Below, piece after piece: positions 1 to 14,258 of a stretch of DNA of 64,000 nt. The notes below the pieces were generated by a model that worked only from the letters and a program-made list of their open reading frames with translations, was not told the DNA's origin and searched no databases. Both the position numbers and the translations under genes were made by a program. The stretch's first letter is position 1; the number at the start of each line of letters is the position of its first letter. Source of the DNA: Microbacterium sp. SLBN-154 (lineage in GTDB: Bacteria; Actinomycetota; Actinomycetes; Actinomycetales; Microbacteriaceae); contig NZ_VFNL01000001.1 in NCBI RefSeq assembly GCF_006715565.1, forward strand, positions 1,612,001 to 1,676,000, written 5' to 3'.

Positions 1-1
1 C

Positions 2-256
2 GTCGGCGAGCGATACGAGGTAGTGACCAACGTGCCGGTCGACACAGGATTCGCTGAACTGACCGTGTCGATCCTGCCGGGAGGGACCGGGCCGGCATCA
101 ACGACACTCACAGTGTCCACAAAGGTGTTCGTGGGCTCGACCTTGCCGGAGAGCCGCATACTCGAAATGGTGGATAACGCCCACAATGTGTCAAAGGAAG
201 CGTTCTTCGCGATAGTGTCCGATGACGCGACGAGCAAGTGGGGGGCTTCGGAGTGA
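2..256 (+). CDS. C-terminal part of a TIGR04255-family protein (5' partial)
   Basis: The frame is open from base 2, so the gene begins left of the window; an internal GTG at 23 need not be the start. The 84 visible residues end in a helix with the pattern ILEMVDNAHN, then a phenylalanine-rich segment and a tail DATSKWG. This resembles the C-terminus of the sporadically distributed TIGR04255 family (about 250 residues, unknown function), where an AH...F...I pattern precedes the end. The family assignment rests on recall of that tail and is moderate. The stop overlaps the ATG of the next gene by one base, so translation is probably coupled. Confidence 0.5.
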   Translation, partial: VGERYEVVTNVPVDTGFAELTVSILPGGTGPASTTLTVSTKVFVGSTLPESRILEMVDNAHNVSKEAFFAIVSDDATSKWGASE

Positions 257-750
257 TGTTGAGCGCGACTCTCTCGAGAGATGACATTGGGGCGCAGCTG
301 GACGAACACGCGCACGGGCGTCCGTCCTTCTCGTTCATGGAAGACGTTGCGCCGATCGACAGGTCTCGTGCCGCGTTGTTGTCCTACGCGCATCGGCAGC
401 TAGTCTCGCTGGCTCGGCGACAGGGCGCGACGGCCACGAGTGTCCGCCGATACTCCTCGGTCCTGCGGCTCTTGGGCGCGCTCGTGACCGACGGGACACC
501 TACTCCCCAGGTAGCGGATAACGGTGAAGGCGGAATTTCGGTCGAGTGGCTCGTCAACGGCAATTCGCTTCTTCTGGATTATGAAGACGAAACCGAGATC
601 CTGCTGTCCGCTCGCAGTTCAGAAGGAGAACGCGTCCTATGCGAGACCATCACGGGTTGGTGGTCGAAAAGCGACGCTCCCGTTGTAGCCGCACGGGAAT
701 TCCTGCGGCGCGTGGCTCCCGCTGTCCAGAATCCTCTTCCCTTGCGCTGA
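256..750 (+). CDS. Unknown protein, second gene of the left-end cassette
   Basis: The ATG at 256 overlaps the upstream TGA by one base (TGATG), which is why it is preferred over GTG at 238 or 253. The product is about 164 residues: an N-terminal stretch of mixed polar residues, a basic helical segment around residues 40-70 (ALLSYAHRQLVSLARRQ), then a beta-rich half containing GGISVEWLVNG and DEILLSA-like strands and ending in a predicted helix. I do not recognise a named family. Its tight coupling to the TIGR04255-type gene and to the next gene suggests that the three proteins act together. Confidence 0.6.
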   Translation: MLSATLSRDDIGAQLDEHAHGRPSFSFMEDVAPIDRSRAALLSYAHRQLVSLARRQGATATSVRRYSSVLRLLGALVTDGTPTPQVADNGEGGISVEWLVNGNSLLLDYEDETEILLSARSSEGERVLCETITGWWSKSDAPVVAAREFLRRVAPAVQNPLPLR

Positions 751-753
751 GTC

Positions 754-1224
754 TTGACGGAGTTCACAAGCCTCACGGTCACGATCGACCGCGAGGTTCA
801 CATGCACGAAGAGATCCTGCGAAGGTTCAACGACCAAGATCCGTCCCACTACGACACAGTCGTGAGGGACGAGGGCGACGGCACACGGAAACTCAAAGGT
901 GGCGCGCTCAGGTGGGACGACGACGGATGCTCCGTGTACAGATCGCGCATTCTCCTGATTTTGGGGCTGCCGAAAGACTGCATCGCAACTGACGCCCACC
1001 CCGCGGTCGCCAGGACAAGTCGGGCATTGATCGAGTCGTTCACATCGGGCCTTGCTGACACGGCGGTCAGACCGGAGTTTGCAGTCGTCGCCGACCCGCT
1101 CGAGCCTGGCGAGCCTTACGATCCCGCCCACACGCTCATCCAGCCGATGGCCGAGTACCCGTCGAAAACCAAGCGTCGAACGGCCGCCAACGATCTAGCC
1201 CGGTCCGCATTCTCGCTGCTCTAG
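754..1224 (+). CDS. Unknown protein, third gene of the left-end cassette
   Basis: TTG at 754 is the assigned start, three bases after the previous stop; an internal ATG at 802 is an alternative. The product is about 156 residues. It has a conserved-looking core with DGTRKLKGGALRW, a short cysteine-containing strand (GCSVYRSRIL), and a C-terminal part rich in Pro and Glu that ends in a basic helix. I do not recognise the family. No membrane segment or signal peptide is visible. A strong hairpin at 1250-1285 ends the unit just downstream. Confidence 0.55.
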   Translation: MTEFTSLTVTIDREVHMHEEILRRFNDQDPSHYDTVVRDEGDGTRKLKGGALRWDDDGCSVYRSRILLILGLPKDCIATDAHPAVARTSRALIESFTSGLADTAVRPEFAVVADPLEPGEPYDPAHTLIQPMAEYPSKTKRRTAANDLARSAFSLL

Positions 1225-1325: not shown

Positions 1326-2060
1326 TCAGGCGGCGACAGGTGCCGCGTCCGCCTCGGCGACGTGAGAGGCGATCCCGGCGGCCATCATGTCGGCGGCCCC
1401 CGTGTCGACCAGGCTCTGCGCGGCGTCGAGGTACGGTGCCGCGGCGGCGAACTTCACGTCGGCGGTGTTCGCGGCGGTCAGAAGCTCGGCGAGGCGCTCG
1501 TCGGGGGTGATCTGCGCGATCCGGTCGTACACCGCTCGCTGCATCCACGAAGTCACCGCGGCCGGCACAGCGTCCGGGGCGAGGGCAGCTCCCACGCGTT
1601 CCTGGAACGTGGGCGGACGGTAGCCGCTGGCGGCGACCCAGGAGGGACCGAACTCAGCGATCGCGAGGGCGGTGTCCATGTCAGCCGTCTTCAGGATGTC
1701 GCGGAGTTCCATGCCGGCGTCGAGCTGCCGCTCCACCTGCCGCCACTTCTGCTCCGACCGGATGAGAGCCGCCGGGTCGTCGGCGACGCGTACGTTCTCC
1801 CTGGCAGTGTCGATGAGGTACCGACGGGAGTTCTCGAGGGAGCGGCGCAGGTTCTCCACGTCGGTCTGGGCGGCAGCGCGGAACTCGCGTGCCATCTCCT
1901 GCTGCAGCCTCGCCAAGGCATCCTTCGTCAGGTTCGGGTCACGGTGCTGCCGTGCACGGGTCAGCGCGTCGCTGATTTCTCGTGCGGAGCTGATGGCTCG
2001 CTCCTTCGCCTGGGCGAGGTCGCGGGCAGACAAGCGAACGCTTTCGATGAAGATGGGCAT
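1326..2060 (-). CDS. Helical phage-type protein downstream of the tape measure gene
   Basis: The start ATG at 2060 is preceded by an AGGAG ribosome site; a longer open frame upstream overlaps the tape measure gene and is not used. The 244-residue product begins MPIFIESVRL and is almost wholly alpha-helical. It has an N-terminal coiled-coil-like region (about residues 10-100, rich in Ala, Arg, Glu and Gln) and an Ala-rich C-terminus. No catalytic motif, signal peptide or membrane segment is visible. Its place directly after a tape measure gene would suit a minor tail protein, but it has no typical tail-protein features. Function unknown. Confidence 0.7.
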   Translation of the reverse strand: MPIFIESVRLSARDLAQAKERAISSAREISDALTRARQHRDPNLTKDALARLQQEMAREFRAAAQTDVENLRRSLENSRRYLIDTARENVRVADDPAALIRSEQKWRQVERQLDAGMELRDILKTADMDTALAIAEFGPSWVAASGYRPPTFQERVGAALAPDAVPAAVTSWMQRAVYDRIAQITPDERLAELLTAANTADVKFAAAAPYLDAAQSLVDTGAADMMAAGIASHVAEADAAPVAA

Positions 2061-2106: not shown

Positions 2107-4998
2107 TCAGATGGTCGAGTGTCGGCCCCGGGCGACCCGGGCTTGCGCGGCGTCGTGGGCGCGGATGCGGCTGTCCGCGGCTCCTGCCATCTCGGCGAGG
2201 AAGTACTCCGGGGAGAACGGGGACTGCACGTAGATCGCCGGAGCCGGGCTGGACGCGGCGGGGGAGCCGTCCGCGAACCGTGCTGCGCCCGCGGGAATGT
2301 AGACGCCGCCGAGGATCGCTGCGGTCTCAGCCATGATCGCCTCGGACCGTGCCCTCTTCGACGGTGCGTGCGGGATGTACGACTCCCCGCCGGTCTCCGG
2401 CTCCGCCCAGACCCGCCAGTCCCCGGCGCGCGCAATCTGTGCGACGTGATGCTCGACCCCGCCGCCGGCGAAGTACTTCACCACGCCGCCGTCCGCCTGT
2501 TGCAGCGCGCCGCGGCCACCACCGCCGCCTGTGTTGATCACGTCGAGGTAGACGTTGAACCGGCGATCCTTGTTGCGGCGCATGAACGCCTCGACGCTGT
2601 CCTGCGCCTGGGCGGTCTCTGCAGTGATCGCGACGGCTCTCTCGTCCGGGAGCCCGAACACCTTGTCTGCGAGCTTCTGCACCTCGTCGGCGTTGAACCC
2701 GGCCGCTCGGGCTGACTCCTCGAACGCCTGCCGCTGAGCGGCGAGCGTTCCGTAGTACTTGTCGGAAGCGTCCTTCGCGCTCATCGTCCGCTGATCAAGC
2801 TCGAACTGCTTCAGGGCCGCGTCCTGAGCGTTGCTGGCCACATCGGCGAGCATCGCCGCGTTCGCGGAGCCGGCGACAGTGGCCTCGTCCAGTGAGAGGC
2901 TGAAGCCGTCGAGCGTGCCGTTCGTCTGCTGGAACTCGTCTCGCTGACGCTGAACCTCGCCCGAGATCCCTGCGAGGGCTTCCTGGTAGCGGGCGTTGGA
3001 GGTGATCGCGTCCTGCCCCACCCCATTCGCCTCGTTGATCTCGTCGATCAGCTCCGAGAGCTGCGAGGACAGCTCTTCAGCGCCGGAAGCTGCTTCCAGG
3101 TAGGCGTCGGCGGCGGACTCTGTCTCCTCGACCCCTTCCGAGGTGATCTCGTTCTTCTGCTCAGTGATGCGCGCGCCGTCCTTCTCGGCCTGCTGGAGCG
3201 CCTCGATGCCGGCGAGCGCGCGGGTGGACGCCGAAGACACTTCGAAGAGCGAGAGCCCGTGCTCATCGGCGAGGCGCTGAGCGGCTTCCATGTCGCCCTG
3301 CCCGGCCTTCATCACGTCGGACAGCTCCGCCAGGGCATCCTTGTTCCCCTGTGCGGCGTCGGCGAGTGTGTCGAGGCTGATCCCGAACTTCTCGGCGGCG
3401 TCAGCAGCGGACCCGCGCGACACCCACAGCCATGACTCCTCCGCGGTGAGCTGCTCAGCGACGAACGACCGCGCGGCTCCCTCGCCCTGCTCGAGAGCGT
3501 CGGCGTACGCCTCTGCCCGCTGACGGGCTTCCGCCTGCCGCTGCGCGAGGAGTCCGACGACGGTAATCACGCCGGCGAGAGCGAGCCCGACCGCACCACC
3601 GATCGCGGCCGTCCGCGTCATGCTGATCTCCGCGGTCTTGAACTGTGCGCCCAGCTCGATCAGCTTGGCCCTGAGCCCGACGGTCGCTCCGGAGGCCAGC
3701 AGCAGAGCGCCAGTGAAGACACCGACGACGAGAGTGGTCGTCTGGACCCCCTCCGGGAGCTCCCCGTACCAGTCGACGAGGAGGGTGATGGCCTGCACCA
3801 TGTCGCGGAGGACGTCGTTCGCGCTTGACCCTGTCTTGATCAGGGCGGTGTCGAGCGCGCCGCCGAGCTTCTCGATGTCACCCGCCAGGTTGTCCTGTCG
3901 AATCGCGGCCTGCTCCGCCGCATAGCCGGTGTCGTCGACCGCCGCGGTCCACTCGTCGACAGCCTTCGCACCACCCTCGTACAGCAGAGTCGCGGCGTTC
4001 AGAGACTCGTTGCCGAAGATCCGACCCAGTGCCGCGAGGCGCTCCTGCTCGCTGAGTCCGCCGAGGCGGCTGCGCAGCTGCTCCGCGATGCCGGACAGCG
4101 ACAGCATGTTCCCCTGCGCGTCGAACACGGTGATCCCATACCGCTCGAGCTCGGTGTTGGCCGCCGCTGAGGGTGCCTGGAGCGATGCGAGCACGCCGCG
4201 GAGTGCTGTTCCCGCCTTCTCGCCGATGACGCCCTGCGTGGCGAAGTAAGCGATCGTGCCGGCCGTCTCTTCGATCGAGAGACCTACCGAGCCGGCGAGG
4301 GGGCCCACGTAGGAGAGCGCGAGCGAGAGGTCGTCGACGGACCCCTGCGCCTTGCCTGCCCCGGCGGCGAGGATGTCCGCGACGCGGGCGGCCTGCTCCG
4401 CGGGAAGCCGGAACTGGGTGAGCGTCGTCGCCATGATCTCTGCGGACCGGGCGACGGCGAGCTGCCCGGCCGCCGCCAGTGACAGGGCCCCGTTGAGTGA
4501 CCCGTTGACGATCTGGGAGACCGACTGTCCCGCCTTCGCGAGTTCCTCCTGAGCGGCGGCTGCCTCGGTCGCGCTGTACGCCGTGTCTGCTCCAGCCTCG
4601 AGCGCGGCGTCGCCGAGAGCTCGCTGCTCTTCCGCTGTCGCCATCGTCGCGGCGCGCACGTTCGACATGCCCTGGTCGAACTCAGCGAACTTCGCCACAG
4701 AGAGCCCCACCATGGCGGTGACCGCGAGGCCCCCCGCGATGAGGGCGAGGCTGAGGCCCTTCGCGGTCTGGATCTGCGCCTCCGTCGCCTGAGCCTGCTT
4801 CTTCTGGTCCTCCGCGGCCTTCCGAGATCGGCCGCCGAGGTCATCTGTCGCCTTCCCCTGCCCAGCGAGAGCGGTCGAGGCGGACTTGGACGATCCCTCG
4901 ACCTTCTTCACTGCTTGATCGGCCTGGGCCATGTCCCGCTGGAACATCTGCGCCCCGGCGGTCTGGATCTTGAAGATCAGCGCTCCGACGTCGAACAT
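2107..4998 (-). CDS. Phage tail tape measure protein (TP901 type)
   Basis: The product is 963 residues from ATG at 4998, with AGGAG just upstream and a one-base overlap with the preceding stop. Residues 1-80 are polar and helical. Residues 81-101 form a hydrophobic segment, followed by FDQGMSNVRAAT, typical of the start of the TP901 core. Two further hydrophobic stretches lie roughly at 430-455 and 465-490. Long Ala/Glu-rich helices follow, and a Gly-rich C-terminus includes FAGGGVEHHVAQI and GGESYIPHAP, seen at the ends of many tape measure proteins. The protein normally sets tail length in siphoviruses. Here no tail tube, chaperone or baseplate gene is recognisable next to it, which is unusual. 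Confidence 0.9.
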   Translation of the reverse strand: MFDVGALIFKIQTAGAQMFQRDMAQADQAVKKVEGSSKSASTALAGQGKATDDLGGRSRKAAEDQKKQAQATEAQIQTAKGLSLALIAGGLAVTAMVGLSVAKFAEFDQGMSNVRAATMATAEEQRALGDAALEAGADTAYSATEAAAAQEELAKAGQSVSQIVNGSLNGALSLAAAGQLAVARSAEIMATTLTQFRLPAEQAARVADILAAGAGKAQGSVDDLSLALSYVGPLAGSVGLSIEETAGTIAYFATQGVIGEKAGTALRGVLASLQAPSAAANTELERYGITVFDAQGNMLSLSGIAEQLRSRLGGLSEQERLAALGRIFGNESLNAATLLYEGGAKAVDEWTAAVDDTGYAAEQAAIRQDNLAGDIEKLGGALDTALIKTGSSANDVLRDMVQAITLLVDWYGELPEGVQTTTLVVGVFTGALLLASGATVGLRAKLIELGAQFKTAEISMTRTAAIGGAVGLALAGVITVVGLLAQRQAEARQRAEAYADALEQGEGAARSFVAEQLTAEESWLWVSRGSAADAAEKFGISLDTLADAAQGNKDALAELSDVMKAGQGDMEAAQRLADEHGLSLFEVSSASTRALAGIEALQQAEKDGARITEQKNEITSEGVEETESAADAYLEAASGAEELSSQLSELIDEINEANGVGQDAITSNARYQEALAGISGEVQRQRDEFQQTNGTLDGFSLSLDEATVAGSANAAMLADVASNAQDAALKQFELDQRTMSAKDASDKYYGTLAAQRQAFEESARAAGFNADEVQKLADKVFGLPDERAVAITAETAQAQDSVEAFMRRNKDRRFNVYLDVINTGGGGGRGALQQADGGVVKYFAGGGVEHHVAQIARAGDWRVWAEPETGGESYIPHAPSKRARSEAIMAETAAILGGVYIPAGAARFADGSPAASSPAPAIYVQSPFSPEYFLAEMAGAADSRIRAHDAAQARVARGRHSTI

Positions 4999-5336
4999 CA
5001 GGACTCCTTTCCGGGGTGGTTGATGCCGAGGACCCTGCAGGCGAGCGCGAGCCGGTTCAGGTGCTTGAGGTGAGTCGGGATCGACCACGTCGGCACTTCG
5101 ACGGCGATGCACATGGCGTACGTGGAGATGGCGGCGAGGATGACGTGGCGCGCGTACCCGGGGTGTTCGGCGTGGGTGGCGTGGAAGCGGAGCAGCTCCG
5201 ATGTGCCGTCGGGAGTCTCGCGGAACGCTTTCGCAAGATGGAATGTGTCAGCGTCGGTGGTGGCTGCGTCGACGGCGACGAGTCCGTCGAGCTGTCGAGC
5301 GAAGTTCTCGACTTCTTGGTCGATGTGGTCGGTCAT
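4998..5336 (-). CDS. Small unknown phage-type protein between replication-type and tape measure genes
   Basis: The 112-residue product starts at ATG 5336 and overlaps both neighbours (four bases upstream, one base downstream). Residues 1-60 are acidic and polar; the second half is helical with several Cys, His and hydrophobic residues, ending in GINHPGKES. In ordinary siphoviruses this slot holds the tail assembly chaperones with a programmed frameshift. No second overlapping frame or slippery site is evident here, so that identity is not supported. Function unknown. Confidence 0.65.
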   Translation of the reverse strand: MTDHIDQEVENFARQLDGLVAVDAATTDADTFHLAKAFRETPDGTSELLRFHATHAEHPGYARHVILAAISTYAMCIAVEVPTWSIPTHLKHLNRLALACRVLGINHPGKES

Positions 5337-6316
5337 GAGGCGACTTCCAATGTTTGGAGGGCTGTCGGGTATCGGTGTTCCGGGCAGTAGACGCACGTGC
5401 CGTCCGGAAGCCAGCGATGCCCGGCGGCTTCGCATCCGCCCTTGGCCCTTTCCTGCGCCTCGATCCGAGCTACAACGGCGAGGTTCTCCTCGCCCCGAGT
5501 CGGCTTTCGGGCGGCGAAGCGGCCTGCAACGACACGACCAGCAGCGGCAGTGGTCAATGCCCGCTCCGTTGGTGCCATGAGCGCGTTCCACTCGGCCTCG
5601 GTCGGGATGGGGGCGACGGGCGGGTCATCCGTCCACCGCTCGCCCTTCAGCCACACACACAGCGCCGGGACGAACTGTCGCTCGGTGGTGGCTGCGTAGG
5701 CCTGGCCAAATCGGATGACGTCCGCTGTGAGAGTTGCGAGGTCGCGGGACTTGGCAGCTCGGATGAACGCATCGAGCGACCGCTTGCGCTCGACCTTCTT
5801 CGGCCACTGCGAATAGGCCCGATCGAACTGCGACTCGATCTCGCGCGCCGAAGGCGGGGGAGTTAGTTCTTCGTGATGATCTTCTGGCAGATGGTGTTCT
5901 GAAGTACTGGTGTTCTTAGTGGCGGATTCACCGACGTCGGAAAAACCGTCGTCGGCTGAACCGTCGTCGGTAAATCCACCGGTGTCGGATTTCCCGACAG
6001 CGGTGGATATTCCGACAGCGGCCGGATCGTTGATCTCGTACTCGATCTCGTTGAACCGACCGTGAGCGCCCTGCGTCTGCCGGCGGACCAGGTACCCGCA
6101 CTCAGCGAGCTCGAGCACTGCCCCTCGGATCGCATCGCGCCCTTCCGGGCCGGCCTTCTGCAGCCCTGCGATCGTCACGTGCCATCCGGCCCGATGGGTC
6201 ATCAGCTCGGCAAGCAGTCCACGCGCACGACGCGACAGACGTTCGTCACGGAGCCACGCATTCGGGATCTGCGTGAAGTCCCGCTCGAAAGCCATCGTCG
6301 TGCGCGTGATGCCCAT
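5333..6316 (-). CDS. Phage replication-type HTH protein
   Basis: The 327-residue product starts at ATG 6316, overlapping the upstream stop by one base; Met8 (6295) is an alternative. Its N-terminus reads MAFERDFTQIPNAWLRDERL and continues into a winged-helix region (to about residue 85), as in actinophage helix-turn-helix or replication-initiation proteins. A low-complexity Asp/Ser/Thr linker follows (about 95-150). A second conserved block has YSQWPKKVERK and ends near VCVWLKGERWTD-like residues. The C-terminus has a paired-cysteine feature (CEAAGHRW...CVYC) that could bind zinc. It probably helps start element replication or load a helicase; this is inferred from family resemblance. Confidence 0.7.
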   Translation of the reverse strand: MGITRTTMAFERDFTQIPNAWLRDERLSRRARGLLAELMTHRAGWHVTIAGLQKAGPEGRDAIRGAVLELAECGYLVRRQTQGAHGRFNEIEYEINDPAAVGISTAVGKSDTGGFTDDGSADDGFSDVGESATKNTSTSEHHLPEDHHEELTPPPSAREIESQFDRAYSQWPKKVERKRSLDAFIRAAKSRDLATLTADVIRFGQAYAATTERQFVPALCVWLKGERWTDDPPVAPIPTEAEWNALMAPTERALTTAAAGRVVAGRFAARKPTRGEENLAVVARIEAQERAKGGCEAAGHRWLPDGTCVYCPEHRYPTALQTLEVAS

Positions 6317-6546
6317 CAGGCAGCCTCGAGGACGTGCTTCAGATCGGCGAGGGCACGGGCGTAGCGGATGCGGAACTCACCTCGGGGGCGGCGCTTGCCG
6401 GTCTCCCACATATTGATCGTCACCCGGTTCACGCCGACCTCGGCGGCCAGCCGACCGACGCCAATACCCGCGGCCTCGCGGATGCGTCGAGCCTCCGCGG
6501 GGGTGGGTAGCGCCTTCAGCAGCTGGGCTTCCTCGATGAGAGTCAC
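6316..6546 (-). CDS. Small XRE-family HTH regulator
   Basis: The 76-residue product starts at GTG 6546, preceded by AGGAAGG at good spacing. Its core is a Cro/C1-type helix-turn-helix (GVGRLAAEVGVNRVTINMW followed by ETGKRRPRG). It is the first gene of the leftward unit that runs into the replication-type and tape measure genes, and is divergent from another XRE gene at 6651. The arrangement suggests a Cro-like switch controlling that unit. Confidence 0.8.
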   Translation of the reverse strand: MTLIEEAQLLKALPTPAEARRIREAAGIGVGRLAAEVGVNRVTINMWETGKRRPRGEFRIRYARALADLKHVLEAA

Positions 6547-6650: not shown

Positions 6651-7151
6651 ATGAGGATCGAAAAAATTGTGGGGCAGAACGTTGCGCGACTACGAGCAGC
6701 GAAGGGCTGGAGCCAGCCCCAGTTCGGCGAGGAAATCGGCTCCTTGCTGAAGTCCAAGCCGTGGACACGGCAGGCGGTCTCGAACGCGGAGAAGGGCCAG
6801 CGCGCGTTCACCGTCGCTGACCTCGTCGCCCTCGCCTGTGTGCTGGAGACATCACCGGCGGCGCTGCTCACGTTGCCGCCGACGCTGTCGACGGTGCAGG
6901 TTGGGGACGCGGAGATCAGGCGCGACTACCTCGAGAACCCGACCTGGAGTCACGAGTCCACATCGGAGGCGCTCGCGAGCGTGGTCGACGTGGTGCGTGT
7001 GATCGAGGATGGCCTGAACGCGCTGCGAGACCTGACTGACCCTCTCCTCGAGAAGGCCGGCGACCTGACCACGGCGGGAGTCGTCTTGCAGGGCCGTATC
7101 CGACTTGAGGAGGCGGGCGCAGCTCGGCCCGGCGACTACGGATGGGCATGA
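6651..7151 (+). CDS. XRE-family transcriptional regulator
   Basis: The 166-residue product starts at ATG 6651. The N-terminal domain is a typical XRE helix-turn-helix (VARLRAAKGWSQPQFGEEIG, then RQAVSNAEKGQRAF). The C-terminal part has acidic helices of unknown role. It faces away from the XRE gene at 6316-6546, and the two probably share operators in the 104-base gap. It begins a rightward three-gene run (6651-8080). Confidence 0.8.
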   Translation: MRIEKIVGQNVARLRAAKGWSQPQFGEEIGSLLKSKPWTRQAVSNAEKGQRAFTVADLVALACVLETSPAALLTLPPTLSTVQVGDAEIRRDYLENPTWSHESTSEALASVVDVVRVIEDGLNALRDLTDPLLEKAGDLTTAGVVLQGRIRLEEAGAARPGDYGWA

Positions 7152-7163
7152 GGAGAGCACAAA

Positions 7164-7550
7164 ATGGCTGAGACACCACGCCGAACAGTCCGGCCCGAAG
7201 ATGAACCACCGCGGACGCTCGCGGAATTGCTTGACATCGCGGGTGCAATTCCGGGCATGCCGTTCCTCGGCGAGGGCGTCCCCAGCCTGTACACCGAGGG
7301 AGCGATCTCCCACGCGGAGGCGAGGCTCTTGGAGCACCACGCGAGGCGCAGCGCCGCCGGTCAGAAGCGGGCTCTCGCTCAGCCCCGTCAGGCCACGGAT
7401 GAGCAGCTCGCGAAAGCTCGTAGCGACCTCGACGACGTGCTCGAGCGTCTCCATCAGAAGTACCCGCACCTCAATAGCGCGCAGGCTCGCCGAGCGCCCG
7501 AGTCCACACCACCGGTTGCAGGGCCGGCCACGCCACGAGGAGGCGAATGA
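7164..7550 (+). CDS. Unknown small phage-type protein
   Basis: The 128-residue product starts at ATG 7164, twelve bases after the previous stop. The N-terminus is basic and Pro-rich. The middle contains a helical stretch (EARLLEHHARRSAAG) and an Ala/Asp-rich helix, and the end is Pro-rich and disordered. No known domain is recognised. Its stop overlaps the start of the next HTH gene by four bases, so the pair is probably co-translated. Confidence 0.65.
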   Translation: MAETPRRTVRPEDEPPRTLAELLDIAGAIPGMPFLGEGVPSLYTEGAISHAEARLLEHHARRSAAGQKRALAQPRQATDEQLAKARSDLDDVLERLHQKYPHLNSAQARRAPESTPPVAGPATPRGGE

Positions 7551-8080
7551 TGCCCGCAATCACCCCTGAGATCCGCGATCGGATCGTTGCCCTCTTCGAC
7601 GAGGGGCGGCACCGCAATGAGATCGCGCGCGAGCTCGGAGTCTCAGGTCCCACTGTCACCCGCGTCTGCCGTGACGCCGGCCGTGAGTTCGACCGGGCGA
7701 ACGACATCCTCGAGCTGCGAGCTGCGAAGGTCGATCTCGACGACATGCGGGAGCGTGTCGCGAAGAAGATGCTGATCGTCGCCGACGACACGCTCAGCGA
7801 CCTCGACGCACCCCACCTCGTGTACAACTTCGGCGGGAAGGAGAACACCTACGCGGAGCATCTCCTCGACGAGGCACCTCTCGCTGCCAAGCTCGACGCG
7901 CTTCGCGGAGCGAGCCTTGCTGTCGACAAAGCGACCCGCATTGTCGAAAGAGCTCCCACCGGTGCTGGGGAAGCGCTCGGGATTTTGGACACGCTCGCCG
8001 CTGGATTCGAGCTTGCCGCTCAGCAGATCCGCGCAGAGGAGTCGGAACCCCGGGCGGGGAGCACCGACGACGGGACCTGA
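7547..8080 (+). CDS. Actinophage HTH protein, possibly terminase small subunit-like
   Basis: The 177-residue product starts at ATG 7547, with a second ATG at 7550. The N-terminus carries a recombinase/homeodomain-like helix-turn-helix (HRNEIARELGVSGPTVTRV). A conserved segment LVYNFGGKENTYAEH follows about two-thirds along, a pattern I recall from HTH proteins of actinophages, some annotated as terminase small subunits. The C-terminus is helical and acidic. The HTH is visibly related to that of the gene at 9073-9429 on the other side of the AbiTii gene. Its stop faces the AbiTii stop, 6 bases away. Confidence 0.65.
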   Translation: MMPAITPEIRDRIVALFDEGRHRNEIARELGVSGPTVTRVCRDAGREFDRANDILELRAAKVDLDDMRERVAKKMLIVADDTLSDLDAPHLVYNFGGKENTYAEHLLDEAPLAAKLDALRGASLAVDKATRIVERAPTGAGEALGILDTLAAGFELAAQQIRAEESEPRAGSTDDGT

Positions 8081-8086
8081 GGCGCC

Positions 8087-8998
8087 TCACCAGCCGAGGA
8101 ATTGTCCCGCGAGCGCGATGAGGCCAGTCGCCGCCATGTCGGACGTCACCCCGGCCGCCAGCGCGACGCTGCCGGACTTGATAGCGCCACCCAGCCGTTC
8201 TAGCTTCGACCGCTTTTCGGTGTCACTACCGTCACTTGTGATCACGGCGACAGCCTCGCCGATGGCTTTCTGGTCCGTCAGCAGGCGGGAAATCGCCCCG
8301 GTAAGGCCGACGATGTCACCCTTCGCGACCACAGCCGTCTGAGTGATTCCTGTTCCCTGTGCGACGTTCGCACCGTCGCCGTAGATGTGATTGATGTTCA
8401 CTGTCAGGGCACGATGGATATCCGGGTCTTCTCTAGTAGGACCGCCCACCTCTCCCGCGTGCGGGTCCACCGCCTGCAAGTCCAGGGCAAGCTCCAGCGC
8501 CTGGGTCCGGATGCTCTCCGCGATCCCTCGAAGCATCGCGGGCGTGACAACCTTCCGTGCGGAATAGACCCCCATCATGACGAAGCGCGGAACCTTCTGC
8601 TGCTCGACGAGGCTGTTGTAGCGCGAAAGAGCGTAGCCATTCCACGGCTCGCCGAGCTGCTCCTCCTTCGCTGCTAACACCTCGAGTTCCGGAAGGGCCT
8701 GCCGAAACGAGAACCTGAACAACGGCAATAGGTCATCCGGCACGCCGGCGGGCGACAAGGTGCTCTCAGCAGACGAGCCGTATGGCCCTGACCATCTCGC
8801 CTGAACGACCGCATCGAACGGTCCACGGTAAACGGGCAAAGGGGCTTCCGAATCGTAACCGTCGAGTTCAGCGCGCACCCATGTTCGAAGGTCTGACGCA
8901 CCAACCCGAGCGGCCAAAGTTTGCACCTTTCGGAGCAAGTTGGTAGTCGTCATCTCATCAGATGATGCGCCGTCGATGATGTCGTCAAGAAGCCCCAT
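8087..8998 (-). CDS. AbiTii-domain abortive infection protein
   Basis: The 303-residue product is read from ATG 8998, with GAGGGAT upstream; the open frame continues further but without a better start. Residues 1-70 match the AbiTii pattern: GLLDDIIDGAS, then NLLRKVQTLAARVG, then LRTWVRAELDGYD. The middle is helical. The C-terminal third contains a short turn-rich motif (GDGANVAQGTGITQTAVV) and a hydrophobic Gly/Ala-rich tail that could insert in a membrane. AbiTii is one of the two proteins of the lactococcal AbiT phage-exclusion system; its biochemical activity is unknown. It reads as a cargo gene of the element, lying between two related HTH genes. Confidence 0.8.
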   Translation of the reverse strand: MGLLDDIIDGASSDEMTTTNLLRKVQTLAARVGASDLRTWVRAELDGYDSEAPLPVYRGPFDAVVQARWSGPYGSSAESTLSPAGVPDDLLPLFRFSFRQALPELEVLAAKEEQLGEPWNGYALSRYNSLVEQQKVPRFVMMGVYSARKVVTPAMLRGIAESIRTQALELALDLQAVDPHAGEVGGPTREDPDIHRALTVNINHIYGDGANVAQGTGITQTAVVAKGDIVGLTGAISRLLTDQKAIGEAVAVITSDGSDTEKRSKLERLGGAIKSGSVALAAGVTSDMAATGLIALAGQFLGW

Positions 8999-9072
8999 GC
9001 TCGCAGTATCCCTCGCCGATATCGGCTCTTCTGCTCTCACGCGCGCGTAAGCGTGACCGGGAGCCGCGGGCT

Positions 9073-9429
9073 CTAGGGGCTGGGGTACCGGCCGTTGTGG
9101 TGCCGGTCGAGGTTGTAGAGGGCGTAGGAGGCTCTGCGCAGCCGGCTGGTGTCGGTGCCATCGGGGCGATTCGGTGCGTCGAGGAAAGCCTCCCATAGGG
9201 TTCGGGCTCGTCTCGCTCGGCTGACCGCCTGGTCGATCTGCCGGGCGGCGCTGGCAGAGGCGGTGCGTTCGGCGTCGCGGAAGCAGATTCCCTCTTGGCG
9301 GGCGATCTTTGACACCGTTCCACCGGAGACGCCGTGAGCTCGAGCGATGGCGTTCCTGCCGAGGCCGACGCGGATATCGGCGGCGATGCGGTGCCGGATT
9401 TGAGGGTCGAGCGGGGTGGTCGCTGGCAT
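9073..9429 (-). CDS. HTH phage protein coupled to the WhiB-like gene
   Basis: The 118-residue product starts at ATG 9429, which overlaps the TAA of the upstream WhiB-like gene by one base. A helix-turn-helix (LGRNAIARAHGVSGGTVSKI) occupies residues 20-45 and resembles that of the protein encoded at 7547-8080. An Ala/Arg-rich helix follows, then a short tail YALYNLDRHHNGRY. It is probably a DNA-binding regulator or packaging-type protein of the element; the exact role is not known. Confidence 0.65.
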   Translation of the reverse strand: MPATTPLDPQIRHRIAADIRVGLGRNAIARAHGVSGGTVSKIARQEGICFRDAERTASASAARQIDQAVSRARRARTLWEAFLDAPNRPDGTDTSRLRRASYALYNLDRHHNGRYPSP

Positions 9430-10457: not shown

Positions 10458-10700
10458 TCACACGTCGCGAGACATGAGCAGCTCGTCGACATCCGGTCGG
10501 CGTTTCAGACCTGCCCGTGTCCCGGCGGCATCGGCTTGGTGTGCAGCAGCCGTGAGCGCCGCCGCGAGCGCGCGCGCCTCGCCCGGAAGCATCCCCGCGG
10601 AAGGCCCTGACATCGTCACCGTGACCCCCGCCACCCCGCAGACGTCCGCCTGTTCGACGACGATCGGGCCGCCCGCGAACCGTGCTTCGAGGACGGCCAT
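10458..10700 (-). CDS. Small unknown protein, last gene of the excisionase unit
   Basis: The 80-residue product overlaps the upstream stop by one base at ATG 10700. It begins with a beta-rich segment (GPIVVEQADVCGVAGVTVTMSG), continues with an Ala-rich helix and ends in a basic acid-tipped tail. No known family is recognised. It lies at the end of the five-gene leftward run that opens with the excisionase-like gene. Confidence 0.6.
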   Translation of the reverse strand: MAVLEARFAGGPIVVEQADVCGVAGVTVTMSGPSAGMLPGEARALAAALTAAAHQADAAGTRAGLKRRPDVDELLMSRDV

Positions 10701-10978
10701 CAGTCGCCCGCGTCTTCTCGTGCCGAGGGTCGGTCCGGGTAGAGGATGCGTAGCTCCTCTGCCAGGCGCATGAGGGTGAACCGGAAGATGTGGCGGATGT
10801 GCCGCTCACCCGCTTTTCCGTCGTCGGTCGTCATGTCAGCGAGCACGGCGTCGAGGAAGTCGGGGTCGTTGGCGTGCCCCCAGACGACCTCGAAGTATCG
10901 CTCGGCGCACGCTCCGAAGATCTCGCGCTCGATCGCGTGGCGTTCTTCGTCGGTGAACTCGGGACCCGGCGTACTCAC
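10700..10978 (-). CDS. Small unknown acidic protein
   Basis: The 92-residue product starts at ATG 10978, overlapping the previous stop by four bases. It is helical and acidic, with EEREAI-like, FEVVWGHANDPDFLDAVL and IFRFTLMRLAEEL segments. No motif is recognised. Coupling to both neighbours makes it a real gene; its function is unknown. Confidence 0.6.
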   Translation of the reverse strand: MSTPGPEFTDEERHAIEREIFGACAERYFEVVWGHANDPDFLDAVLADMTTDDGKAGERHIRHIFRFTLMRLAEELRILYPDRPSAREDAGD

Positions 10979-11502
10979 GCTGCCACCGTCGCAGTGCTCG
11001 CGCTCACGGCATCGAGGGCAGTTCTCGTCAGCTGATTGAGCAGTCGGCTCCGATCCTCATCGTCGCGGCTGAATGCGCCGGCCAGGTCGCCGAGGTCGGC
11101 AAGGGTCCAGGACGAGTGCCCGTTGAGCCGGTGCAGCAACTTCGCTCTGGTCATGCCCGCAGCGTCGGCGGCCACGTTGATCGTCCACTCCCGGTCGCCG
11201 AGCAGCGCCTGCACCTCGGCGGTGATCGCGGCGTCGGCCGGATGCGCCGCCTTGGTCGCGCTGGCGGCCGCGCGCTCGAGTGACTCGGCCATGCGGATGA
11301 GGAAGCGGATCTCCTCGACGAACCGCTTCGTCTCCTGGATGGTGAGGTCACTGACGCCGACGGCATCGACCGGAGCGATCCGCCAGGGTCCGCCGTCGGT
11401 GCGGGTGATGCAGTGCAGTTCGTCGCTGCGCACCGTTGACGGGTAGCTGTAGGTCTCGATCCCGTTGTCGTGGGTGTGGGTGGTGGGGGATAGGGTGATC
11501 AT
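10975..11502 (-). CDS. Phage-type protein with C-terminal HTH
   Basis: The 175-residue product starts at ATG 11502 with AAAGG upstream. The first 60 residues are beta-rich (DELHCITRTDGGPWRI). Residues 60-95 form a charged helix. The C-terminal part has an XRE-like helix-turn-helix (WTINVAADAAGMTRAKLLHR, then SSWTLADLGDLAGAF). It is probably a DNA-binding regulator of the element, within the unit that begins with the excisionase-like gene. Confidence 0.6.
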   Translation of the reverse strand: MITLSPTTHTHDNGIETYSYPSTVRSDELHCITRTDGGPWRIAPVDAVGVSDLTIQETKRFVEEIRFLIRMAESLERAAASATKAAHPADAAITAEVQALLGDREWTINVAADAAGMTRAKLLHRLNGHSSWTLADLGDLAGAFSRDDEDRSRLLNQLTRTALDAVSASTATVAA

Positions 11503-11575
11503 AACGGTTGCCTTTCGGGGTAGCTCAGCCCTCGTGACTCGTGCCGGAGTCGCGGGGGCTTCTTCTGTGTGGGGG

Positions 11576-11902
11576 TCAGGCGAGGCACCAGACGCTCGCC
11601 CTGTTGCCGAGCTTGGAGAAGCCGAACGCGTCGGCCTCGCGGACCTTGCCGGCGACGACGAGCTCGCGTCGGCGTGTGCGGATCGACTGCGGGGTGACAG
11701 TCGGCACCGCGGGGTGGGCGCCCGCCCTGGCGTTGTAGCGGTCGACGATCTCGTCGTCGGTCTGGGGGCCGTACTCGGCCAGGATCGACATGATGACGGC
11801 CTGAACGCGACTGGTGCGGGCGTCGGTCTGAAGGGCTGCCGCCTCCAGCGATGTCCCGGAATCCAGGGCGAGTGCCCGGGTGCGGGCGGCGAGGGCCTTC
11901 AC
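11576..11902 (-). CDS. Winged-helix phage protein
   Basis: The 108-residue product starts at GTG 11902, overlapping the excisionase-like stop by four bases. After a polar N-terminus it has a winged-helix pattern: RVQAVIMSILAEYG, TDDEIVDRYNA, VTPQSIRTRRRELVVAG, then a wing with ADAFGFSKLGNRASVW. This resembles winged-helix modules common in actinophages. A DNA-binding role is inferred. Confidence 0.65.
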   Translation of the reverse strand: MKALAARTRALALDSGTSLEAAALQTDARTSRVQAVIMSILAEYGPQTDDEIVDRYNARAGAHPAVPTVTPQSIRTRRRELVVAGKVREADAFGFSKLGNRASVWCLA

Positions 11903-12132
11903 GATGCCTCCGCCGCGGTGCCCTGGCGCGCGCTTGCCTCGATCCAGTCGATGATGTCGGCGCGGCGGTACAGCACCTTGCGAGGGGTTGGCTTCCGATA
12001 GCGGGGGCCTTCGCCGTGGAATCGCATCTGAGCAAGGTGCGTCCGGCTGAAGCCGAACTCCCGCTCGACGTCGGCCGGCGTCAGGTAGGGGCTCGTCCGA
12101 GCCTCGGGCGATGGTGCGGTTGGTGCGGTCAT
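11899..12132 (-). CDS. Excisionase-like HTH protein
   Basis: The 77-residue product starts at ATG 12132 with GGAGAG upstream. A MerR-type or HTH_17 helix-turn-helix (YLTPADVEREFGFSRTHLAQ), then a wing with RYRKPTPRKVLYRRADIIDW, fits excisionase/Xis and AlpA-like proteins. It is divergent from the repressor-integrase pair across an operator region, the usual place for a recombination directionality factor. It may also act as first regulator of the five-gene leftward unit. Confidence 0.7.
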   Translation of the reverse strand: MTAPTAPSPEARTSPYLTPADVEREFGFSRTHLAQMRFHGEGPRYRKPTPRKVLYRRADIIDWIEASARQGTAAEAS

Positions 12133-12145
12133 AGGTCTCTCCGTC

Positions 12146-12220
12146 TCAAGTAGTCGAAAATTCGATGTACGGATATCTGACCATCTGAAATCACAGCGTG
12201 TCAAGTAGTCGGCTTTTCGA
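12146..12220. promoter_or_regulatory. Immunity operator region with two direct repeats
   Basis: Two 20-bp copies, 12146-12165 and 12201-12220, share TCAAGTAGTCG at one end and TTCGA at the other and lie exactly 55 bases apart. The first copy also holds the palindrome TCGAA-AA-TTCGA. They sit between the divergent excisionase-like gene and repressor, and are the best candidates for repressor binding sites overlapping both promoters. Confidence 0.6.
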
Positions 12221-12233
12221 TTACCATCAGCAC

Positions 12234-13040
12234 GTGTCGATACCTGCTGATCACCCCCTGCGTGACGTGCTCCCTCTCGCGGCCGCCTTCGGCCGGGGAG
12301 TCCGCAAGATCCGCACCGATCACGGACTGACGCTCGACAGGGTCGCGACCACCGCGACGCTGTTCGGCCTCAAGTGGTCGACCGCTCGTGTCGTCGAATT
12401 CGAGAACGGCAAGATCCCCATCACCCTCCCGACGTTGATGCGGGTGGGGACCGCGCTCACAGCCCTCACGGAGAAGCCGGTGACGCTGTCGGACATGCTC
12501 GGCTGGGACCGGTGGCTCGAGTTGCCCGGCGGGGGAGTGATCCATTCCGATGCGTTCCGGCAGGCGTTCGCTGGCGGGCCGGTCGATCTCCGTCAAGGTG
12601 ACGACGTCGAGTTCGCGCGAGATGACGCCACGGACGCGTCGGCGCTGATCGAAGGTGTGCCACCCGGGATCACTGCCCGTCAGCTGAAGTGGATGCACGA
12701 GTACGCAGGTTTGGCCGACGAGCGCGCGGCGAAGACGCTCGGGCTGTCCCTCGATGAGTTCCTCGCCTTCGCGTTCCCCGTCGTCGGGATGGCGCTCAGC
12801 CAAGCGACACATGCCGGCGGCTCAGAGTCACCGCAACAGCGCGGCCACCGCACGCGACGCCTGACGCGTCTGGTCGGCGAGTTCGTGGAGCTGTACAGGT
12901 CCGGCGATCCACGAGTCGTCGGCATCATGTCCCGGCTTGCCGACCTGTGGAGATCAGAGGACCCCGATGCCAAGGCGGCGGTGCGGGCGAGCATCGACGA
13001 GGTCGTCGACGAACTGAGCGACGGGCGTCGGGATGGGTAG
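12234..13040 (+). CDS. Prophage immunity repressor (XRE-like)
   Basis: From GTG 12234 the product is 268 residues; GTG 12198 would add 12 but would overlap the second operator repeat. Neither start has a clear ribosome site, so a leaderless message is possible. Residues 15-75 contain an XRE-type HTH (FGRGVRKIRTDHGLTLDRVA, then STARVVEFENGKI). A middle segment carries an acidic linker, and a second helical region (ITARQLKWMHEYAG...AAKTLGLSLDEFL) resembles a further HTH. It overlaps the integrase gene by eight bases, so repressor and integrase are co-expressed in the lysogen. Confidence 0.75.
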   Translation: MSIPADHPLRDVLPLAAAFGRGVRKIRTDHGLTLDRVATTATLFGLKWSTARVVEFENGKIPITLPTLMRVGTALTALTEKPVTLSDMLGWDRWLELPGGGVIHSDAFRQAFAGGPVDLRQGDDVEFARDDATDASALIEGVPPGITARQLKWMHEYAGLADERAAKTLGLSLDEFLAFAFPVVGMALSQATHAGGSESPQQRGHRTRRLTRLVGEFVELYRSGDPRVVGIMSRLADLWRSEDPDAKAAVRASIDEVVDELSDGRRDG

Positions 13041-14157
13041 CGTCCATCCGTACACGACCGCGGCCGGCAAGAAGCTGTACCGGATCTCCTACCGCCGCCC
13101 GGATCACTCACAGACGACCGAGCGAGGATTTCGCACCAAGCGCGACGCCGAACTGCGGCTCGCCGAGCTCGAGGTCTCGAAGGCGCGTGGCGAGTACGTC
13201 AACCCGGCCACCGCAGCCGTCACGGTCCGGACCCTCGGCGAGGAGTGGCTTGAGAGTCGCCGCGGTGTGCTCAAGCCGTCATCGTTCCGACCGTTGGAGT
13301 CGGCCTGGCGGAAGCACGTCGAGCCGAAGTGGGGGAGTCGCTCGATCGGGGGCATCCGCCACTCCGAAGTGCAGGCGTGGGTATCGAGCATTGAAGGAGG
13401 GTCGACAACGGTCCGCCGGTGTCAAGGAGTCCTCGCCGGCATCCTTGACAACGCCGTCAGCGATCGCCGCCTCACACGCAACGTCGCCCGCAACATCGAT
13501 TTGCCAGCCCGGAAGCGCAATGCACGCAGGCACTATCTGACCCACGGTCAAGTGCAGGCCCTCGCGGACCACGCCAGACACCCCACATTGGTGCTCTTCC
13601 TGGCCTACACGGGCCTGCGTTGGGGAGAGGCGACAGCGCTCCGGGTCCGGCATATTGACGCGCTCAGACGGCGTGTGACGGTCGAAGAGAACGCGGTCCT
13701 CGTGTCCGCACGCGTGCACGTGGGGTCGCCGAAGACGCACCGCTCGCGATCCGTTCCTTATCCCGAGTTCCTCGCGCTGCCGCTCGCGCAGCTCGCCGAG
13801 GGGAAGACGCGCGACCAGCTGCTATTCGGCGACGGCGAGAGCCACGTGAAGCTACCGGCGTCCCGGAACGGCTGGTTCACGGTGGCCGTGCGTGCGGCGC
13901 AAGCCGATGATGAGAGCTTCCCCAGAGTCACGCCACACGACCTGCGTCATACCGCTGCGAGCCTCGCTGTGCAGGCCGGAGCGCACGTGAAGGCCGTGCA
14001 GCGAATGCTCGGACATTCGTCCGCCGCGATGACGCTAGACGTCTACGCCGACCTCTTCGACGACGACCTCGACGCCGTCGCAACGGCCCTCGATGAGGCC
14101 AAGCGCGCGGCGAATGTTGTCACGTCGTTGTCAAAGGAAAGGGACCGCGGGGCCTGA
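13033..14157 (+). CDS. int: Tyrosine site-specific integrase
   Basis: The 374-residue product starts at ATG 13033 inside the end of the repressor gene. An N-terminal AP2-like arm-binding region and a SAM-like core-binding domain (about 65-155) precede the catalytic domain. Catalytic signs are Arg in TGLRWGEA, the box HDLRHTAASL, GHSS, and the Tyr in LDVYADLF near residue 340. The stop lies 25 bases from a tRNA-Arg(CCG) 3' end, its probable attachment site. It inserts and, with the excisionase-like protein, removes the element. Confidence 0.95.
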   Translation: MGSVHPYTTAAGKKLYRISYRRPDHSQTTERGFRTKRDAELRLAELEVSKARGEYVNPATAAVTVRTLGEEWLESRRGVLKPSSFRPLESAWRKHVEPKWGSRSIGGIRHSEVQAWVSSIEGGSTTVRRCQGVLAGILDNAVSDRRLTRNVARNIDLPARKRNARRHYLTHGQVQALADHARHPTLVLFLAYTGLRWGEATALRVRHIDALRRRVTVEENAVLVSARVHVGSPKTHRSRSVPYPEFLALPLAQLAEGKTRDQLLFGDGESHVKLPASRNGWFTVAVRAAQADDESFPRVTPHDLRHTAASLAVQAGAHVKAVQRMLGHSSAAMTLDVYADLFDDDLDAVATALDEAKRAANVVTSLSKERDRGA

Positions 14158-14182: not shown

Positions 14183-14227
14183 TGGTGCCCCCGACAGGAA
14201 TCGAACCTGCGACCTTTGGTACCGGAA
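14183..14227. other. Predicted attachment site core (attR/attL) in the tRNA 3' half
   Basis: Integrases that sit beside a tRNA 3' end usually recombine in the T arm to acceptor, sometimes reaching the anticodon. The exact core cannot be set without the second copy, which is not in this window. Confidence 0.4.
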
Positions 14228-14258
14228 ACCAACGCTCTATCCCCTGAGCTACGGAGGC
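14183..14258 (-). tRNA. tRNA-Arg (anticodon CCG), 3' CCA encoded
   Basis: The minus strand folds as a cloverleaf: acceptor GCCTCCG with CGGGGGC, D stem GCTC/GAGC, anticodon stem TTGGT/ACCAA around loop TTCCGGT, and T stem GCAGG/CCTGT around TTCGATT. The anticodon CCG reads CGG. Discriminator A is followed by an encoded CCA (14183-14185 on the plus strand). The gene 3' end faces the integrase. Confidence 0.95.

Follow-up and report, generated by a model that had tools for sequence, protein, structure and literature searches.

Why should a complete gene for a phage tape measure protein (TMP) lie in an integrated element in which no other tail gene is recognised? The question is raised by a stretch of 64,000 bp, here called the window, which corresponds to bases 1612001 to 1676000 of the 3.57 Mb single-contig genome of Microbacterium sp. 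SLBN-154, and in which positions are counted from the first base. In a phage tail, the TMP determines the length; a chaperone covers it, its C-terminal end docks in the tip, and it has a part in genome entry. From the gene content of the element and of its relatives, we consider it probable that it is a phage satellite, integrated in an actinobacterial chromosome, which contributes a TMP of its own to tails made by a siphovirus helper.

The TMP gene (2107..4998, minus strand) was open from MFDVGAL through to the stop codon and encoded 963 amino acids. The protein matched TIGR01760 (2.9e-61) and PF10145 (2e-48), both above the cut-off, as well as 24 PHROG families, 19 of which are named tape measure (best match 4.6e-84). 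It was matched by 66 Microbacterium records, and its sequence identity to the TMPs of Microbacterium phages (Footloose and the phage loci L066 and L068) ranged from about 35% to 61%. The gene is the fourth in a minus-strand run that opens with an XRE regulator (6316..6546; PF13560 and PF01381), followed by a replication-initiation-type protein of 327 amino acids, here called rep (5333..6316; phrog_270, 3.9e-23; no Pfam match), and by p112, a small helical protein of 112 residues (4998..5336), the gene for which ends in the TMP start codon. The run closes with p244, an all-helical protein of 244 residues (1326..2060) encoded 46 bp downstream of the TMP. Overlaps of a few bases join the first four genes, with TGATG between XRE and rep, ATGA between rep and p112, and TGATG between p112 and the TMP gene. 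An earlier note on this DNA had described a TP901-type TMP of this length in a tight operon behind an XRE regulator and a replication-type gene, which agrees with the family matches and overlapping ends, and its coordinates were correct, although both p112 and p244 had been missed. Its wording that the gene was fused into a replication-type operon is correct for the gene order but not in the sense of a fused protein.

Relatives of p112 were encoded directly upstream of the TMP in the related loci L036, L062, and L069, and p244 also recurred in relatives of the element. Neither protein had a match in the collection of phages. When viral contigs were searched, one p244 protein as query gave no match, and A2 recovered L074 only, which is located on the same contig as L036. 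The p244 profile matched 3 of 398 genomes of the family, one of which was the genome studied here.

The element spans 14.9 kb between 47-bp exact direct repeats of the end of a tRNA-Arg gene, with chromosome on either side. The right copy (14184..14230) was located within the tRNA-Arg(ccg) gene (14183..14258, minus strand), beside a gene for a tyrosine integrase of 374 amino acids (13033..14157, plus strand; PF00589, 8.7e-20; phrog_1, 6.2e-64). The left copy was found at genome position 1611246, which is 754 bp outside the left edge of the window and 14,938 bp from the right copy, and the genes to the left of it were of chromosomal type. As the left repeat copy is followed by chromosomal-type genes, the element is complete and no tail module adjoins it; a tail module just beyond the left edge, which would have spoken against the idea of a lone TMP gene in the earlier note, was not present.

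In its organization, the element resembles satellites of the type known as phage-inducible chromosomal islands (PICIs): it is integrated site-specifically between direct repeats with its own integrase alongside, it contains a cI-like XRE regulator (6651..7151, plus strand) that is divergent from the XRE gene of the TMP operon, and it carries the phrog_270 replication gene. In agreement with the earlier note, no structural family other than the TMP was identified in PHROG- and Pfam-type scans of the proteins of the element, in which the genes at 10458..10700 and 10700..10978 and the gene at the left edge were not scanned singly, and a complete virion set is lacking. Nor did the scanned proteins include the capsid, portal, and terminase genes that characterize capsid-forming PICIs (cf-PICIs). 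Unlike the TMP genes in phage loci L066 and L068, the TMP gene of the window was not flanked by genes for tail tube, chaperone, and tip proteins, and does not belong to an ordinary siphovirus tail operon.

The earlier note had asked whether the gene set recurs in the absence of other tail genes, and a lone TMP gene was found to recur. With the window TMP as query (E <= 1e-20, the four best candidates scored per genome), related TMP genes were detected in 22 of 198 Microbacterium genomes, out of the 366 available for the genus. The 26 rows recovered represent 13 lone-TMP loci (in genomes G000, G005, G035, G044, G066, G074, G094, G116, G125, G149, G180, G185, and G197, the last of which has a split gene that gave two rows), 11 loci of phages or prophages that also have genes for head and tail (G011 twice, G049, G058, G073, G074, G083, G140, G143, G148, and G180), and one fragment (G142). 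Since the query was itself a satellite TMP, the ratio of lone to phage loci is biased to TMPs close to that of the window. Further lone-TMP loci were L036 from IMG/VR, L063 (G231, at a contig end), and L077 (G641, from another genus). Loci were classified by gene calling over as much as 20 kb of context and by BLAST searches against Footloose and six phage loci; in addition to L063, the lone loci in G044 and G197 were located at contig ends.

Direct repeats of at least 20 bp bounded eight TMP-bearing elements of 10.1 to 16.5 kb (the window, L062, L064, L077, L080, L081, L085, and L090), and in five of these the repeat overlapped a tRNA gene called by ARAGORN. No such repeat was found in L036, L069, L082, L086, and L091. 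A bounded element with p244 and no TMP was identified in Agromyces humatus (L073). It was also noted that the satellite TMP in L089 (G197:C18, 97-3360), at the start of the contig, was divided between two frames that overlap, which represents either a recent break or an assembly error. Among the phage loci, G011:C1 contained the same prophage structural module twice (L067 and L096), about 44 kb apart and with identical sequences for the compared proteins, as a result of either a tandem prophage or an assembly duplicate.

The assignment of these loci as lone was backed by PHROG scans of 12 elements, for which 169 of 172 non-TMP proteins of at least 70 amino acids from our own gene caller were used, the three remaining rows being integrases or partial integrases. 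The scans recovered integrases, regulators, and replication proteins, whereas portal, major capsid, and tail tube were absent among the PHROG families listed for these elements (25 of 33, 55, and 36 families, such that a weak single match could be hidden). The same scan applied to 18 proteins of the control phage L068 recovered portal, major head, connector, and tail proteins.

To compare the TMPs of satellites and phages, a tree was inferred from 16 satellite and 14 phage rows (a quick tree, with SH-aLRT support only). The fragment L094 was left out. The second L089 piece was not used for the tree, the C-end test described below was run without L063 and L089, and P0016, which looked chimeric, was removed from an alignment of p112. 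Satellite and phage TMPs were interspersed in the tree, with 10 changes of label, at least 8 of which were forced by well-supported branches, as compared to a mean of 10.2 for shuffled labels. The window TMP clustered with that of phage L066 (61% identity, support 99), L077 with phage L033, and L036 with phage L092. The remaining genes told another story. Between the window and L036, the identities were 75% for the cI-like protein, 86% for XRE, 67% for rep, and 53% for p244, yet only 31% for the TMP; the cI-like and XRE proteins were also 69% and 71% identical, respectively, to those in L062. Conversely, L036 and L064 were only 26% identical in p244 and 46% identical in the TMP. The histories of the TMP and the backbone of the elements thus disagree.

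One clade of the TMP tree consisted of six satellites (L080, L081, L082, L085, L086, and L089) and contained no phage, for which reason some TMPs seem to have resided in satellites for a long time. The dN/dS values for three pairs within this clade were 0.105, 0.233, and 0.226, as compared to 0.16 and 0.19 for phage pairs and 0.27 to 0.42 for satellite-phage pairs, as obtained with a simple Nei-Gojobori estimate in which several pairs had a dS close to 1 or higher. Purifying selection acts on the TMP.

In 10 of the 14 satellites tested, the last 45 residues of the TMP had a good match in a phage (z above 7), and in all 10 the phage with the best match to the C-end differed from the phage with the best match to the TMP body, L062 and L082 being near ties. 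Over 50 residues, the C-end of the window TMP and that of satellite L085 were 44% identical. Among the 25 phage rows listed of 126 records, matches within the last 109 residues of the window TMP covered only the first 43 to 57. Among 14 phages, C-end similarity weakly tracked the similarity of the gene that follows the TMP gene (Spearman 0.26, permutation p 0.0065), whereas similarity of the TMP body did not (-0.10). There were exceptions in both directions: L068 and L030 have the C-end of L079 but another next gene, and L093 and Footloose have the next gene in common but not the C-end.

Some of the sister elements carried additional genes for packaging and assembly. PHROG families for the terminase small subunit were matched in L080 (1.6e-16) and L090 (2.7e-18), and for head scaffolding-type proteins in L085 (7840-8286; 4.2e-10) and L086 (7199-7705; 2.1e-7), where they were located just upstream of the chaperone and TMP genes; it is possible that these scaffolds provide control of capsid size beside that of the tail. 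A tail assembly chaperone was present in L081, L082, L085, L086, and L089, with a profile that matched phage chaperones at 99.3% in hhalign and 3 of 398 genomes of the family. The chaperone gene was located directly upstream of the TMP gene in four of these five elements and one gene away in L081. In L082, the TMP is followed by a right-handed beta-helix protein of 544 amino acids (11294-12928; PF13229), possibly a satellite-encoded tail spike. A protein in L077 was 29% to 30% identical to minor tail proteins in three phage records, and L073 encoded, between rep and p244, a protein (8197-9255) that matched a minor tail protein of an Arthrobacter phage (43% identity over 45% of the length), which is perhaps another tail part put to the same use. 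A protein of 233 to 238 amino acids encoded right after the TMP in L063 (4998-5714) and L064 (14471-15172) matched phrog_13702 (named terminase large subunit, 218 positions) and no Pfam family; it was rejected as a terminase large subunit on account of its short length.

Candidate defence genes varied among the elements, with AbiTii in the window (8087..8998, minus strand; PF18864, 1.7e-28; PADLOC AbiTii, 3.6e-30), a NucC-like nuclease in L036, a TIR-like protein in L062, and PDC-M30A in L064. In the window, L036, and L062, the candidate gene was located near the cI-like gene. Furthermore, one member of the A11 set, which comprises proteins from L077, L080, L081, L082, and L085, matched PHROG families named superinfection exclusion (1.7e-29, 2.4e-24).

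In the mechanism that we propose, the satellite would integrate at the end of the tRNA-Arg gene by means of its own integrase, be controlled by a cI/XRE switch, and bring along genes for replication and defence. During growth of a siphovirus helper, which would have to come from outside, the rep-p112-TMP-p244 operon would be expressed and the satellite TMP would be incorporated in tails whose other proteins (tube, tip, and terminator) come from the helper. Satellite DNA packaged in helper heads would then exit in particles with the satellite's own tail ruler and genome-entry protein. An own TMP would free the satellite from the TMP of the helper, or let it compete with it; since the satellite would supply the TMP alone, it must rely on the helper for everything else. 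The TMP gene is passed between satellites and phages, and the final 45 residues or so, which are expected to dock in the tail tip, behave like an end that can be exchanged. The TMP lengths do not point to resizing, and candidate gains are escape from a block on the helper's TMP, preference for satellite heads, entry, and interference with the helper. Helper dependence, induction, incorporation into tails, and benefit are parts of the model that we infer from the genes.

Several observations weigh against the proposed role. The product of p112, which fills the chaperone slot, matched no chaperone profile and gave no clear fold match, and protein family scans of the window element revealed no terminase small subunit, scaffold, or recognisable chaperone. 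No helper phage was found in the host genome, which contained no second match to the window TMP and zero matches to the three terminase and portal families probed (TerL PF03354, portal phrog_533, and portal PF04860). The C-end of the window TMP had no good match in a phage (best z 2.6), C-end type and tip gene were weakly linked in phages, with clear exceptions, the sister TMP in L089 was split, and most of the elements are known from sequence alone. The suggestion in the earlier note that the TMP could serve a satellite to modify helper tails is nevertheless the best fit to the satellite-size bounded elements, the 13 lone loci, the packaging and assembly genes in the sisters, and the exchange of TMPs with phages, even though the helper itself was not found.

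Other explanations fit these data less well. The TMP could be a weapon, a decoy ruler that spoils the tails of a helper or an invading phage and protects the host in the manner of the tail-assembly defences Tai and Rta, with no need for a role in satellite particles. There are precedents for satellites and prophages that block the assembly of tails (PMC11364771, PMC12987554), and AbiTii in the window as well as the other candidate defence genes in L036, L062, and L064 would suit such a function. A decoy would, however, have no use for the terminase small subunit, scaffold, or chaperone encoded by the sisters, and the full length of the TMP maintained under purifying selection, together with TMPs and C-ends that track many phages, makes this explanation unlikely. 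A decayed prophage that happens to retain its TMP gene would account for the prophage-like integrase, cI-like gene, and tRNA site, and for the 61% identity to the TMP of phage locus L066. Yet eight separate bounded elements have retained an intact TMP without the rest, their backbone genes p112 and p244 are unmatched in the phages collection, XRE, cI, and p244 are conserved between elements with differing TMPs, and dN/dS is low in satellite-satellite pairs, all of which renders chance retention highly improbable. We consider it just as improbable that the TMP has been repurposed for a task outside virions, such as DNA entry, exclusion of other phages, or conjugation: while TMPs take part in genome entry and the lone copy adjoins a replication gene, the length is conserved, the sisters have chaperone partners, TMPs including their C-ends are exchanged with those of phages, and family scans of the element turned up no conjugation gene.

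A broader scenario can be put forward tentatively. Microbacteriaceae may hold a large unrecorded class of satellites with a tail kit as their main contribution to the virion (the TMP with or without a chaperone, a minor tail or spike protein, and a head scaffold), in which the C-end of the TMP would serve as an exchangeable plug that suits the tip of a particular helper's tail, and the helper would be switched by exchange of the TMP or its end with phages. Lone-TMP satellites might then be about as common in the genus as the donor phages.

Among the remaining genes of the element, a gene for 280 amino acids (12198..13040, plus strand) overlaps the integrase gene and had no family match; it is preceded by genes for an excisionase-like protein (11899..12204, minus strand; phrog_66, 2.1e-7) and for a protein of 108 amino acids (11576..11902, minus strand) with identities of 85% in L063 and 57% in L036. 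The cI-like gene is followed on the plus strand by genes for a protein of 128 amino acids (7164..7550; 49% identical in L036) and for a helix-turn-helix-type protein of 177 amino acids from a phage family of unknown function (7547..8080; phrog_5536, 4.9e-28). The left cargo (1..1224, plus strand) consists of the final part of a gene of 263 codons, whose start lies beyond the window edge, and two genes at 238-750 and 754-1224, with no function assigned.

The TMP is homologous to those in the tail modules of Microbacterium siphoviruses (Footloose, L066, and L068), but in the phages its gene is part of a full head-tail module and has the chaperone and tip genes on either side. PICIs of the Staphylococcus aureus pathogenicity island (SaPI) type are described as altering capsid size and packaging, and a TMP is outside their usual set of genes. 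The window element differs from them in that it carries a TMP and has no recognised capsid-size gene, while the terminase small subunit in two sisters and the scaffold in two are features in common. Integrase, divergent regulators, replication gene, size, and defence genes are also shared with these islands (PMC10690885, PMC11364771). Some cf-PICIs have been reported with putative tmp genes (legend of Extended Data Fig. 10 in PMC12987554), but cf-PICIs encode capsid, portal, and terminase genes (PMC10690885, PMC12987554), none of which was seen in the scanned proteins of the window element.

The closest parallel is provided by the PICI-like elements (PLEs) of Vibrio cholerae, where PLE11, PLE1, and PLE4, parasites of the single contractile phage ICP1, build chimeric tails in which the satellite TMP is in and the helper TMP is out (PMC12987554, Nature 2026). 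These tails are about 10 nm shorter, and loss of tmp led to a 96% to 99.9% loss of transduction. Because PLEs have already been shown to use their own TMP, the earlier note cannot be followed, as worded, in calling this use of the family new. PLEs resemble the elements studied here in having an own TMP and no full tail module, in carrying defence genes along, and in combining tmp with a chaperone gene, as in five of the sisters. The window element differs in having p112 in the place of the chaperone, and its function is proposed from its genes, whereas that of PLEs was shown by experiment. No report of TMP-bearing satellites in Actinobacteria was found in the literature searched (open-licence PMC papers), and PLEs, with a single contractile phage, are as far as we found the one case in which chimeric tails with a satellite ruler have been shown. 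If true, a siphoviral version that recurs among Actinobacteria would turn the replacement of the ruler into a general strategy of satellites. Many annotated phages exist for the genus, and the system would let the gain of a satellite from its own ruler be tested directly, with the repeated exchange between satellites and phages as a natural comparison of which parts of the TMP fit which tail tip. Chimeric tails with a satellite ruler are thus already known from PLEs; what is added here are actinobacterial elements with no capsid genes shown, and TMPs that resemble those of siphovirus-type actinobacterial phages, rather than a contractile one, and belong to many lineages.

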